A DNA stretch of 33,030 nt, taken from positions 1 through 33,030 of the forward strand of contig VBAS01000047.1 of NCBI GenBank assembly GCA_005882975.1. Direction: 5' to 3'. The notes beneath the pieces were generated by a model. That model had not been told where the DNA came from and searched no databases. It saw only the letters and a list, made by a program, of their open reading frames with translations. The translations under genes were made by a program, and so were the position numbers. Below are positions 4,362-31,776 of the stretch, in pieces. Origin of the DNA: Bacteroidota bacterium (GTDB taxonomy: Bacteria > Bacteroidota > Bacteroidia > Chitinophagales > Chitinophagaceae). The first letter of the stretch is position 1; every line of letters starts with the position of its first letter.

Positions 4362-6392
4362 ATGGGAAGAAAAAATTCAAAAAAGAAAAAAGATAAGGAA
4401 AGGGGTAAACAAAAAGATAAGCATTCCCATGATCAGTCGTTGACCGGTGTATTGGATATAAGCCGTTCAGGAACTGGTTTTGTTGTGGTGCCAAATATGC
4501 CTGTCGATATTCTTATTCGTCCGGATGATCTGGGTACTGCATTGCATGGCGATACGGTAAAGGTTAAAGTAAAGGATGCTAAAGAAAAACATAAAAGACA
4601 GCGGGGAGTTATAACTCAAATCGTCAGTCGAAAGCAAACTGAATTTGTGGGAACACTTCAAATGAATAAAGGCTTTGCATTTTTTGTGGCTGACGGTAAT
4701 AAGAAGATGCCTGATATTTTTATTCACTCTTCTAAATTCAATAATGCCAAGGATCGTGATAGGGTAGTTGTAAGATTGCGGGAATGGGAAGACCAGGATA
4801 AAAGACCCGAAGGAGAGGTGCTTCAGATCCTTGACAAGGAAAATGAGAATGATATTGCGATGAAGGAAATTTTATTGCAATTCGGATTCCCATTAGGGTT
4901 TCCTGATGAGGCGTTGGAAGAAGCAGCAAGAATTCCTGATATTATTACAGATAAAGAAATTAAGAATCGAAAGGATTTTCGTGATATTCTCACATTTACG
5001 ATCGACCCTGTTGATGCAAAAGATTTTGATGATGCTATTTCATTCAGAGTATTGAAAAATGGTAACTATGAAATTGGGGTTCATATTGCTGATGTTAGCC
5101 ATTATCTTGAAGAAGGCACATCATTGGATAACGCAGCGTATGAAAAAGCAACTTCAGTTTATTTGCCGGACCGGGTAAATCCAATGCTGCCTGAAGAGAT
5201 CTCCAATGTACTTTGCTCATTAAGACCGCATGAAGAAAAGCTGACTTTCTCTGCTGTTTTCCAAATAACACCTGACGGAAAAATAAAACAATATTGGCTG
5301 GGTAAAACAATTATCCATTCAGATCACCGGTTTACTTATGAGGAAGTGCAGGAAATAATTGAAACAAAGGATGGGTTGTATCGTGATGAAATTCTAATTC
5401 TGAATGGCCTTGCACAGCAAATGCGTAATGATCGATTTAAAAACGGTGCAATTAATTTTTCATCACAGGAAGTTAGGTTTAAACTTGATGAAAATAATAA
5501 GCCGATCGGTATCATGATAAAGGAAAGCAAAGAAGCGCATCAGTTGATCGAAGAGTTTATGCTTCTTGCTAATCGTACGGTGGCAGAAAATCTAGGTAAA
5601 ATAAAGATCAATAATAAACCAATTCCTTTTCCTTACCGGATTCATGATGACCCGGATGAAGAAAAATTGTTGCCCTTTGTTGCATTTGCAAAAAAATTCG
5701 GTTACCAGTTTGATATTTCAAGCCCCGATGCGATCGCTTCATCATTTAATCATATGCTAAAACAAGTTCATGGGAAGCCTGAACAACATGTACTGGAACA
5801 ATTAGGAATAAGAACAATGTCAAAAGCGAAGTACACAACTGAAAATGTTGGGCACTATGGTCTGGGCTTTGAACATTATTGTCATTTCACTTCTCCGATC
5901 CGTCGTTACCCGGATGTAATGGTGCACCGCATTCTTGAGCAGGCATTAAATAATAATTTTATCATTGATAAGAAGATCGAAGAAAAATGCAAGCATTGCA
6001 GTGATAAGGAACGATCAGCAATGGAAGCTGAAAGAGCTGCTAATAAGTACAAGCAGGTTGAGTATATGCAAAATTTTTTAGGTGATGAATTTGAGGGAGT
6101 CATCAGCGGGGTATCATCTTTTGGTTTTTGGGTAGAAACAGTTGAACATAAATGCGAGGGACTTGTTAGTATACACAGCTTATCTGAGTATGATGATTTC
6201 AGGCATATAGAAACTGATTATTGTCTTGCAGGAGCCCGGTCAGGAAGAACTTTCAGGATGGGCGACAAGGTTTGGATAAAAGTGATTGCAGCCAACCTTA
6301 CAAAGAGGCAATTGGATTATGAATGGGTAGTGGCAAGTGGTTTGAAGGAGGTAAAGAAGAAAAAAGCTAAACCGCAAAGTCGCAAAGAATAA
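4362..6392 (+). CDS. rnr: Ribonuclease R (RNB-family 3'-5' exoribonuclease)
   Basis: Processive 3'-5' exoribonuclease that degrades structured RNA and defective ribosomal or messenger RNA. It has 676 residues. Order of domains: a lysine-rich N-terminal tail, cold-shock-like OB domains (GTGFVVV... and GFAFFVADGNKKMPDIFIH), the RNB catalytic domain with the acidic cluster DPVDAKDFDDAISF (about 214-227), the HFTSPIRRYPDVMVHR segment, then an S1 domain (about 573-655) and a basic C-terminal tail. The last seven residues, KPQSRKE, and the stop codon are written by a repeat unit that also brackets the next gene, so the native C-terminus seems to have been replaced by an insertion. Catalytic parts look intact. 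Confidence 0.95.
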   Translation: MGRKNSKKKKDKERGKQKDKHSHDQSLTGVLDISRSGTGFVVVPNMPVDILIRPDDLGTALHGDTVKVKVKDAKEKHKRQRGVITQIVSRKQTEFVGTLQMNKGFAFFVADGNKKMPDIFIHSSKFNNAKDRDRVVVRLREWEDQDKRPEGEVLQILDKENENDIAMKEILLQFGFPLGFPDEALEEAARIPDIITDKEIKNRKDFRDILTFTIDPVDAKDFDDAISFRVLKNGNYEIGVHIADVSHYLEEGTSLDNAAYEKATSVYLPDRVNPMLPEEISNVLCSLRPHEEKLTFSAVFQITPDGKIKQYWLGKTIIHSDHRFTYEEVQEIIETKDGLYRDEILILNGLAQQMRNDRFKNGAINFSSQEVRFKLDENNKPIGIMIKESKEAHQLIEEFMLLANRTVAENLGKIKINNKPIPFPYRIHDDPDEEKLLPFVAFAKKFGYQFDISSPDAIASSFNHMLKQVHGKPEQHVLEQLGIRTMSKAKYTTENVGHYGLGFEHYCHFTSPIRRYPDVMVHRILEQALNNNFIIDKKIEEKCKHCSDKERSAMEAERAANKYKQVEYMQNFLGDEFEGVISGVSSFGFWVETVEHKCEGLVSIHSLSEYDDFRHIETDYCLAGARSGRTFRMGDKVWIKVIAANLTKRQLDYEWVVASGLKEVKKKKAKPQSRKE

Positions 6393-6818
6393 ATAAGAGT
6401 TCGCAAAGCGATGAATGAAAATGAACTTTCAAAAATTGTTGTGGACTGTATTTTTAAGGTTCATAAAAATCTTGGTCCTGGATTGCTGGAAAGTGCATAT
6501 GAAGAATGCTTGTTTTATGAGCTGTCAAAAACAAGCTTAAATATTGAAAGACAAAAGCCATTGCCGCTTTTTTATGAAACAATTAGAATGGAAATTGGCT
6601 ATAGACTGGATTTTTTGATCGATAATAAAGTAGTTATTGAAGTGAAAGCAGTTGAGGCAGTGAATGATGTTCACAAAGCTCAGGTAATAACTTATCTTAA
6701 ATTATCTGGTACCAAGTTGGCACTATTAGTAAATTTTAATGTTGTTTTAATTAAGGACGGAATAAAAAGAATAGTTAATAACTTATAAAACTTTGCGTAA
6801 TCCTTGCGCCTTTGCGGT
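6371..6818. mobile_element. Putative GxxExxY cassette bounded by CGCAAAG inverted repeats
   Basis: The left side (6371-6408) reads ACCGCAAAGTCGCAAAG, then a 17-base gap, then CGCAAAG. The right side (6791-6818), read on the other strand, is ACCGCAAAGGCGCAAGG, then a short gap, then ACGCAAAG. The two ends are therefore inverted copies with ACCGCAAAG at the outer tips, and the only gene between them is the GxxExxY ORF. The left end is inside the last codons of rnr. No transposase and no clear target duplication is visible. Calling it mobile is inference from the bracketed structure. Confidence 0.5.
6411..6788 (+). CDS. GxxExxY protein (PD-(D/E)XK-nuclease-like small protein)
   Basis: 125-residue protein of the GxxExxY family (Pfam PDDEXK_3), whose cellular role is not established. 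The name-giving motif is visible as GPGLLESAYEECL (about residues 22-34). The PD-(D/E)XK-like core follows at about 65-80: RLDFLIDNKVVIEVKA, where the Asp and the E-x-K are in the expected order, so the fold and a metal site look preserved. It begins 18 bases after rnr and ends 41 bases before the prenyl synthase gene, interrupting an otherwise housekeeping run. Inverted CGCAAAG repeats lie directly on both sides. It is probably an acquired gene with its own boundaries; the family call is firm, the function is not. Confidence 0.88.
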   Translation: MNENELSKIVVDCIFKVHKNLGPGLLESAYEECLFYELSKTSLNIERQKPLPLFYETIRMEIGYRLDFLIDNKVVIEVKAVEAVNDVHKAQVITYLKLSGTKLALLVNFNVVLIKDGIKRIVNNL

Positions 6819-6829
6819 AAAAAAAATTT

Positions 6830-7789
6830 ATGCAGTCATTTGAAACATTATCCAAACAATTTGCTGAGAAATTTGATACAAGGCATTTTCCCGAACAGCC
6901 GGCTTCGCTGTACGAACCCAATGAATATTTTTTGAAACTCGGTGGTAAAAGAGTTCGTCCCGTTTTATGTTTAATGGGCAATGAACTCTTTGATGAAATT
7001 ATTCCCGATGCATGGCATGCCGCAACAGCAATTGAGCTTTTTCACAATTTTACTTTGATCCATGATGATATTATGGATAAAGCGCCTTTAAGGAGAGGCC
7101 AGCAAACTGTTCATACAAAATATAACGATAGTACAGCATTGCTTGCAGGCGACGTAATGATGGTGAAAGCGTATGAATATCTGAATAAAACCTCTTCAAA
7201 ATATTTAAGTAAAGTGTTGTCTTTATTTAACAAGACGGCGATCGAGGTTTGCGAAGGACAACAAATGGATATGGACTACCAGTCACAGAATAATGTAAGC
7301 ATGAATGATTATTTGCAAATGATAGAGCTTAAAACTTCTGTAGCATTGGCGGCCAGTTTGAAAATAGGCGGCTTGCTTGGTGGTGGCGGCGAAAGAAATC
7401 AAAATCTTTTATATGAATTTGGAAAAAAACTGGGAATTGCTTTCCAGGTACAGGATGATTACCTTGATGCATTCGGAGATAAAAATAAAACTGGTAAACA
7501 AGTGGGTGGAGATATTTTGGCCAATAAAAAAACTTTTTTACTTATTCATGCAATGGAATCTCCTTCCTGCAAAAAAGAATTAGAACAATTAATGAATACG
7601 AACCCGGATGATAAAGTACAAAAAGTAATAGCCTTGTATAAAGACTGCAAAGCCGATGAATGGGCCATTCAATTAAAAAATAAATACTTTGATGAAGCCC
7701 TGACTCACTTAGATGATATTGCCGTTCTTTCAAAAAGAAAAGAGCCTCTTAGAGAGCTGGCTCTTTTCCTTGTACAGAGAGATTTCTAG
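6830..7789 (+). CDS. Trans-isoprenyl diphosphate synthase (polyprenyl synthetase family)
   Basis: Cytosolic enzyme that condenses isopentenyl diphosphate onto an allylic diphosphate to make linear prenyl chains for quinones, carotenoids or other isoprenoids. It has 319 residues. Motifs: 'KLGGKRVRPVL' substrate loop (about 37-47), first aspartate-rich motif HDDIMDKAPLRRGQ (about 77-90), second motif QDDYLDAFGDKNKTGK (about 207-222). A Phe lies five residues before the first DDxxD, an arrangement linked to geranylgeranyl-length products in some family members, but product length cannot be settled by reading. The stop codon overlaps that of the convergent small membrane protein. Confidence 0.9.
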   Translation: MQSFETLSKQFAEKFDTRHFPEQPASLYEPNEYFLKLGGKRVRPVLCLMGNELFDEIIPDAWHAATAIELFHNFTLIHDDIMDKAPLRRGQQTVHTKYNDSTALLAGDVMMVKAYEYLNKTSSKYLSKVLSLFNKTAIEVCEGQQMDMDYQSQNNVSMNDYLQMIELKTSVALAASLKIGGLLGGGGERNQNLLYEFGKKLGIAFQVQDDYLDAFGDKNKTGKQVGGDILANKKTFLLIHAMESPSCKKELEQLMNTNPDDKVQKVIALYKDCKADEWAIQLKNKYFDEALTHLDDIAVLSKRKEPLRELALFLVQRDF

Positions 7790-11290: not shown

Positions 11291-11682
11291 TCGCTGCAAA
11301 CCGTGCTATCGCTTCAGCGCTTCCAGTTGAGGAGGAAAGTCCGGACAGTACAGAGCAATGCACCCCGTGATAAGCGGGGGTACTTCAACCAATGCTGAAA
11401 AGTAAGTTGAAGTAACAGATAGTGCCACAGAAAATAACTACTTCGCTTCGGCGGAGAAAAGATGAAAATGTGGGGTAAGAGCCCACGGCTTTTGATCGTG
11501 ACATCATTTGCGGGTAAACCTTGCATGCTGAAATGCCACATATAGTATCGTTTGAGGGCTGCTCGTCCAAGATACAGGGTAGGCAGATTGATCCCGGTGA
11601 GTAATTACCGGGACAGATAAATGATAGCGGTCCCGATTTATCGGGATAACAGGATCCGGCTTACAAGTTTGCAGCGTTTTTT
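11291..11682 (+). ncRNA. rnpB: RNase P RNA (M1-type ribozyme)
   Basis: Catalytic RNA of ribonuclease P, which matures tRNA 5' ends. The universal conserved region GAGGAAAGTCCGGAC is at 11331-11345. The 3' partner region ACAGGATCCGGCTTAC is at about 11649-11664. The terminal helix P1 is visible as CGCTGCAAAC (11292-11301) pairing with GTTTGCAGCG (11667-11676). A T-run starting at 11677 provides the terminator. Length is about 385 bases. Near the 3' part a TCCCGA-TTTA-TCGGGA hairpin (11631-11646) resembles the CCGATA/TATCGG palindromes elsewhere in the window and may be a lineage-specific helix. Identification is firm; ends are good to a few bases. Confidence 0.95.
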
Positions 11683-31448: not shown

Positions 31449-31569
31449 GCTGTTATTTTGCTTCGTTGTGGGCCATTGGGATAATTGCGCCCAACTCGCA
31501 GGTTTCTGCAAATTGTTGTTCCAAATCTAATTAAGAAAAGAACAATTGAGAAATGAAATCATGATAAAA

Positions 31570-31745
31570 AAGTGTCCCATAGGGACACTTGGTGGGTAGT
31601 AGTAAAAATCATCAAAATGTATCAGCGTTCCGTAGGAACGCATTGTGCTAAATTTTCGAATTTCGATTTGCACCAAACGTTCCGATGGAACGTTATGGCC
31701 ATTCACGATTGTTAAACTACCCATCAAATGTTCCTGCGGAACATT
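31570..31745. repeat. Array of four ~52-bp-spaced hairpins forming one larger palindrome
   Basis: Stems: AGTGTCCC-ATA-GGGACACT (31571-31589), GCGTTCC-GTA-GGAACGC (31625-31641), AACGTTCC-GAT-GGAACGTT (31676-31694), AATGTTCC-TGC-GGAACATT (31727-31745). The differences between stems are matched on both arms, so pairing is conserved. Centres are at about 31580, 31633, 31685 and 31736. The first spacer (TGGTGGGTAGT...) is the inverse of the third (...ACTACCCATCA). The middle is itself near-palindromic around TTCGAA (31655-31660). It lies between two minus-strand genes and has no coding content. Confidence 0.8.
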
Positions 31746-31776
31746 CTTAGCAGTTACGTAATGTCATCTCGTTATT

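Follow-up and report, generated by a model that had tools for sequence, protein, structure and literature searches.

A GxxExxY cassette at the end of rnr

The window analyzed here is a 33,030-nt stretch of DNA from a Bacteroidota bacterium of the Chitinophagaceae (GCA_005882975.1, contig VBAS01000047.1, positions 1 to 33,030, forward strand). Between the RNase R gene rnr and a polyprenyl synthase-like gene, it carries one small gene enclosed by inverted repeat arms (Table 1). The first-pass annotation had read the outer tips as an inverted pair, and this is borne out: ACCGCAAAG at 6371-6379 faces CTTTGCGGT at 6810-6818, and the alignment of the two arms, ACCGCAAAGTCGCAAAGAATAAATAAGAGTT against ACCGCAAAGGCGCAAGGATTACGCAA-AGTT, has a score of 16, a value reached in 0 of 5,000 shuffles. 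The repeat unit is tandem inside each arm. Exact CGCAAAG words occur five times within 6373-6816, on the + strand upstream of the gene (6373, 6381, and 6402) and on the - strand downstream of it (6791 and 6810); the whole window holds 10 such words, compared to 3.4 ± 1.8 expected, and the five outside the cassette are all single. RNase R ends in KKKAKPQSRKE followed by a stop; the left arm contributes PQSRKE together with the stop, so that the earlier statement that the left tip supplies the last seven residues and stop is a fair one, the exact count being six residues and part of a lysine codon.

Table 1. Features of the cassette locus (window coordinates) and the related four-helix-bundle loci
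Feature	Coordinates	Strand	Basis or remark
rnr (RNase R, 676 aa)	4362..6392	+	ORF list; final codons and stop from left arm
Left arm, ACCGCAAAG-T-CGCAAAG-(14 nt)-CGCAAAG, three + units	6371..6408	+	Sequence, pattern search, arm alignment
GxxExxY gene, 125 aa	6411..6788	+	TIGR04256, PF13366, alignment, AlphaFold model
Right arm, CTTTGCG-TAATC-CTTGCG-C-CTTTGCGGT, inverted relative to left arm	6791..6818	-	Sequence, pattern search, arm alignment
Polyprenyl synthase-like gene, right border of the insertion site	6830..7789	+	ORF; synteny with rnr in congeners and in the family
TIGR02436 (S23p/IVP) loci L297-L305 (own genome) and L306-L334 (relatives)			Iterated-word inverted arms, of classes unlike those of GxxExxY

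The single ORF of the cassette matches the GxxExxY family TIGR04256 with 145 bits (cut-off, 35) over positions 2 to 116 of the 116-position profile and PF13366 (PDDEXK_3) with 140.6 bits; both matches span the full protein, and both entries name the protein alone. No transposase of the DDE, HuH, serine, or tyrosine type is encoded in the cassette. The description of a self-contained cassette without a transposase therefore stands, given that the cassette is absent at four congener junctions, has gene-free copies, and recurs in unrelated contexts, as detailed below. The nuclease core, also claimed to be intact, is present as E27, D67, E77xK79, and Q91 in the family alignment, and these five residues are intact in 155 of 161 GxxExxY proteins. 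The AlphaFold model (pLDDT, 95.7) has SSO0001 and lambda exonuclease as its top fold matches (TM about 0.5, all E values above 0.01), and profile comparison gave weak matches to Cas4 (E = 0.002). With Cas4/lambda-exonuclease-type PD-(D/E)XK proteins, GxxExxY has the motif order E-D-ExK-Q in common; it differs from them in being about 60% as long as the matched chains. This motif order and the modeled fold place GxxExxY in the PD-(D/E)XK superfamily, with a predicted nuclease activity. A sequence search of solved structures returned no match for the protein, and PADLOC gave no defense assignment beyond the weak Cas4 similarity. In all four pairs compared, dN was about 0.05 to 0.08 and dS above 1.3, which, together with the intact core in 155 of 161 proteins, suggests that an active nuclease is being selected for: judged by these substitution rates, GxxExxY is under purifying selection. 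We also considered the gene as phage cargo and rejected this, there being no match in INPHARED and one contig in IMG/VR.

Inverted arms around GxxExxY genes in general

Eight GxxExxY genes, of which one is split over two reading frames, are found in the genome that contains the window, and all eight lie between inverted arms whose words differ by gene, comprising CGCAAAG, CACAGATT, AACCACGATT/AGGATT, CACGAATT, CACATAG, and CACAAAG classes. We extended this comparison to 163 loci: the family contributed 90, and most of the other 73 came from scanning 85,462 species genomes, the latter set spanning Bacteroidota, Ignavibacteria, Acidobacteria, Verrucomicrobia, Chloroflexi, and Planctomycetes. The inverted-arm score, a local alignment of the upstream flank with the reverse-complemented downstream flank, had a median of 21 in both sets, compared to 12 for mismatched pairs and 11 for control ORFs. 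The motif CRCNNAG occurs 0.61 times per 50 nt on the + strand just upstream of the genes and 0.99 times on the - strand just downstream, compared to about 0.1 farther out. Arms of the same gene score 20 against each other and 13 against same-class arms of other genes, indicating that the mirror symmetry itself is kept, beyond the common words. Arm classes, assigned by regular expressions that left 34 loci unclassified, consist of CGCNNAG, CACNNAG, CACAGAT, CACGAAT, or GATT units across genomes; one locus, L155, falls below the threshold of the final classifier though its arms read CGCAAAG. At the radA site of Bacteroides finegoldii, the arms read CACCACAGAGGACGCAGAGG...

Thus, an enrichment of arm repeats around GxxExxY genes elsewhere is strong over the 163 loci. 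The inverted CGCAAAG ends noted by the first-pass annotation are real at rnr, yet as a general rule the claim needs amending: what GxxExxY genes have in common is inverted arm repeats, CGCAAAG is one arm class among several, and the words vary, with the class following the protein clade. The arm pattern is not universal either, as a GxxExxY gene on a Fusobacteria plasmid (L338) lies between direct repeats around AATCCGTGTACCTAT and one from Sphingomonas (L337) has a left arm alone.

Arms and gene as one unit

Several comparisons link the arms to the gene they enclose. Protein similarity correlates with arm similarity (Mantel r = 0.28; permutation standard deviation, 0.024), the protein tree requires 23 changes of arm class compared to a mean of 64 and a minimum of 54 after shuffling, and the nearest protein neighbor has the same arm class in 101 of 127 cases, where 37 are expected. 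In 69 of 164 pairs of loci whose proteins are at least 68% identical, gene and arms are alike and both outer flanks are unrelated. On the basis of these comparisons, we regard it as well supported that arms and gene form one mobile unit. Some of the other pairs are orthologous loci with conserved outer flanks, so parts of the GxxExxY family appear to have been inherited vertically. Five loci (L085, L086, L090, L108, and L190) have inside-out arms, with CTTTGCG words upstream, and outer flanks conserved across genera; with these conserved surroundings, the locus is read as an old copy that has been passed on vertically.

Where the element adjoins rnr, trpG, or hsdS-like genes, the upstream reading frame ends on a stop codon that belongs to the arm; at trpG-trpD, the cassette takes the place of about 30 bp of spacer. 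Target duplications are irregular: the arms are TIR-like, with 38 bp duplicated in L153 and nothing visible at trpG-trpD. In L153, the cassette follows an hsdS-like gene and is flanked by a perfect 38- to 39-bp direct duplication of that gene's 3' end, and at L158 the start of an hsdM-like gene is duplicated over a longer stretch, though imperfectly. In each of two phyla, a GxxExxY cassette separates two domains of a metH-like gene (L009 and L226). We examined the hsdS trio L136/L153/L149 as possible recent jumps and rejected this reading, since synonymous sites are saturated and every left flank is an hsdS-like end.

The rnr junction and other sites in relatives

The genus keeps the order of rnr and the prenyl synthase gene, as does much of the family. 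The first-pass annotation had called for empty sites at this junction in relatives, and the cassette is indeed missing in all four congeners with a readable junction (G001, G003, G004, and G005; the G002 junction lies outside the loci read), so the locus is not fixed in the family. The congeners' rnr genes lack the arm and end in lysine-rich tails of unrelated sequence. In G003, whose RNase R C terminus is 91% identical, a short spacer without cassette arms separates the two genes, and the rnr tail holds a short tandem run, AAAAGTGAAAAGTC; in G004 and G005, rnr and the prenyl synthase gene are joined by a short spacer with arms absent, and the G001 spacer contains a gene-free hairpin of another word class, GTCAGAAGTCTGAGGTC. 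The absence from four congeners marks the cassette as lineage specific, and by this comparison it was either gained at rnr in its own lineage or lost independently from the others. Among the congener proteins compared (7 of 10), the window GxxExxY has no counterpart above 55% identity, and its nearest relatives, 61 to 68% identical and mostly with CGC-class arms, come from Flavobacterium, Melioribacter, Niabella, and others. Given such distant relatives and the lack of a congener match, horizontal arrival of the cassette would be the simplest history.

To compare further sites, the joined flanks of 12 elements were searched in five congeners. At the trpG-trpD junction, two species have a cassette, two others have a plain spacer, and one has a hairpin of the CAC class. 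At the L006 site, two species carry GxxExxY, G001 carries a four-helix-bundle gene between AGTC-type arms, and G002 apparently carries another, gene-free hairpin. Hairpins of another class occupy the L004, L014, and L039 sites in G001, and the L003 site does not enter the comparison, as other genes lie between its flanks in congeners. Overall, G001 has a different element at six of seven comparable sites (rnr, trpG-trpD, L004, L006, L014, and L039, but not L007). Such a coincidence would be highly improbable by chance (binomial probability below 2e-5 at a rough background of one hairpin per 12 to 20 genes), which suggests that insertion sites are shared or that elements replace each other.

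Gene-free hairpins and genome counts

Copies of the flanks lacking the gene, which the first-pass annotation had proposed looking for, were found in the cassette's own genome, where same-word hairpins without a gene are dispersed between genes. Those tested fold strongly as RNA (z scores of -2.8 to -7.9), and no Rfam family covered the hairpins tried. We counted them with a two-unit CGC pattern, as the single pair CGCAAAG...CTTTGCG was too loose and picked up unrelated repeats in G008 and G077; the two-unit pattern occurs 38 times in the own genome and its reversed control 0 times. Across a sample of 120 family genomes, and with kinship ignored throughout these counts, the mean was 8.6 copies in the 77 genomes with GxxExxY compared to 1.2 in the 43 without, at least 10 copies were present in 20 of 77 compared to 2 of 43 (Fisher P = 0.003), and the median was 17 in typed genomes with a CGC-class gene compared to 1 in other typed genomes. 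The genomes of L163 and L155, each with exactly one GxxExxY gene and CGCAAAG-type arms, hold 59 and 36 copies, respectively, and two genomes without a GxxExxY gene hold 22 and 11. De novo hairpin density in samples of about 100 kb from eight genomes did not separate genomes with and without the genes; it ranged from 2 to 9 per 100 kb, with appreciable false positives and only about half sensitivity, and was highest in G005, which has none of them. We use this density solely as the approximate background for the sharing of sites.

Many of the own-genome CGC hairpins are adjoined by a second repeat, GTTGCGTCGCACTCTTGTAC..., and this repeat or a variant of it lies directly beside CGC hairpins at L013, L014, L017, L026, L031, and L039. 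A further repeat, CCCCCTGTCCCCCTAAAGGGGG, is found at L017 and in many places in G001 to G003, being common in congeners. The window itself contains a gene-free hairpin at 1151-1238, whose GATGCTGGATACTGG word class is the one that flanks the four-helix-bundle gene L303, and a hairpin-like inverted pair at 31561-31760 (score, 21) that is not of the iterated-word type; the stretch at 11293-11679 is an ordinary bacterial RNase P RNA of class A.

A sibling family with four-helix-bundle genes

We came to TIGR02436, the four-helix-bundle/S23p family, through the hairpin that G001 has at its rnr site. All eight readable TIGR02436 genes of the own genome lie between inverted arms, built of GTCCATAGTC, GATGCTGGATACTGG, GTTTGAAGTTTGAGG, and further words, and over 32 such genes from the own genome and relatives, the median arm score is 24, compared to a null of 12. 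The S23p protein is known from the 23S rRNA intervening sequence (IVS) of Coxiella, a selfish stem-loop that has tandem heptamers in its stem, holds the S23p ORF in its loop, and is removed from the RNA by RNase III (PMC4990558). A passenger- or addiction-type role has been proposed for the ORF of 23S rRNA IVS.

Discussion

In its anatomy, the GxxExxY cassette resembles the IVS of Coxiella and Leptospira, which likewise has a terminal inverted stem whose loop holds one small ORF, shows tandem heptamers in its arm, comparable to the tandem words of the GxxExxY arms, and is considered selfish (PMC4990558). The IVS, however, sits in a 23S rRNA helix and encodes an S23p four-helix bundle, whereas the cassette lies between protein genes and encodes the PD-(D/E)XK nuclease GxxExxY; it thus has the anatomy of an IVS with a different gene and outside rRNA. 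In their distribution, GxxExxY elements follow the pattern of REP/REPIN-RAYT systems, in which one gene is found with inverted short palindromes of a clade-specific class and many gene-free intergenic copies (PMC2817692, PMC3116915): here, too, own-class inverted palindromes enclose the gene and gene-free copies are dispersed. Yet, RAYT is a Y1/HuH tyrosine transposase, while GxxExxY is a PD-(D/E)XK protein in which a tyrosine-transposase domain was not found, and the GxxExxY arms are longer than REP palindromes and built of iterated words. The element combines an IVS-like anatomy with a REP/RAYT-like population structure, and there is a real chance that it represents a new class. In the open-access literature, to which our search was limited, with most subscription papers and preprints outside its scope, we found nothing on the flanks of GxxExxY genes, on TIGR04256/PF13366 in such a role, or on the repeat words, and the GxxExxY hairpin element is apparently undescribed.

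We lean, by a little, toward reading the cassette as a selfish hairpin element whose sole gene, GxxExxY, serves as its own mobility enzyme by acting on its own arms. Comparison reveals the unit of arms and gene, its gain or loss at sites, its gene-free relatives, the matching of arm class to protein, and the selection on the active site, and we infer the enzymatic role; its own arms are probably what the nuclease acts on, which makes this its candidate role. On this reading, the cassette is one copy of a widespread hairpin element, in which two inverted arms of tandem 7- to 10-nt words enclose a loop that holds one small nuclease gene and nothing else. The element inserts between genes, often right at a stop codon, in which case the arm gives the upstream gene a new C terminus and stop. 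We propose that GxxExxY recognizes the iterated words of its own arm class, perhaps binding the palindrome or an extruded hairpin as a symmetrical multimer, and cuts there, with repair or religation into another intergenic region as the final step. It might also mobilize gene-free hairpins in trans, a service that RAYT transposases are believed to perform for REPs/REPINs. The chemistry, to judge by residues and fold, would be that of a metal-dependent PD-(D/E)XK enzyme like Cas4 or lambda exonuclease.

The main doubt about a role of the nuclease comes from the four-helix-bundle family, whose elements share this chassis but carry no nuclease, so that carriage by another enzyme, the alternative named by the first-pass annotation, may apply. 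The old, vertically inherited GxxExxY loci, the 22 and 11 CGC repeats in two genomes without the gene, and the irregular target duplications also speak against the main reading. The hairpin could be a general chassis that host processes spread, be it slippage or template switching when hairpins are replicated, repair, or the action of an unrelated transposase, and the ORF in the loop could be a passenger or addiction gene with a function of its own. The four-helix-bundle genes (8 readable here, 32 scored) mostly stand in the same arm architecture with other words, the L006 site alternates between GxxExxY, a four-helix-bundle gene, and an apparent gene-free hairpin, and the Coxiella IVS, excised by RNase III, has the same anatomy (PMC4990558), all of which would fit such a chassis. 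Against it stand the arm class tracking the GxxExxY phylogeny, with each protein family keeping its own words, which a pure passenger would not need, and the strong conservation of the active site, and we consider it rather unlikely.

PD-(D/E)XK homing enzymes are known in general, and gene-free palindromes might accordingly be prior targets, the nuclease cutting their center and its gene being copied into the loop. A gene in the middle of a palindrome would then protect its own site, and gene-free palindromes of the same class do abound. The empty rnr and trpG-trpD sites argue against this variant, as they are plain spacers or hairpins of other classes rather than cognate palindromes, and homing is in our view improbable. 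Finally, we reject as highly implausible that there is no cassette and that a housekeeping gene has ordinary repeats or terminators in the spacers next to it: hairpins do occur at gene ends and a vertically conserved GxxExxY locus does exist, but elements are present or absent at orthologous sites, their classes turn over, the arms match each other and move together with the gene, and the outer order is T-run, arms, A-run, where an intrinsic terminator has the order A-hairpin-T.

Returning to GxxExxY as a mobility enzyme, a wider proposal, which we offer tentatively and as short of an even bet, is that the cassette represents a new class of transposable elements, in which a 125-aa PD-(D/E)XK nuclease, without any known transposase, would read the words of its own arms and move both itself and gene-free hairpins, with a four-helix-bundle guild on the same chassis, of which the rRNA IVS would be a special case. 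GxxExxY genes are widely annotated without a function, and, if they are indeed the mobility genes of hairpin elements, a common mystery family would gain a role and many of the short intergenic repeats of Bacteroidota and further phyla would gain a source. This would also link the 23S rRNA IVS, REP-like repeats, and a nuclease able to transpose alone. The matched protein-arm pairs constitute a natural data set on the evolving sequence specificity of a tiny nuclease, and the common insertion sites at gene ends show how elements rewrite C termini and stop codons.
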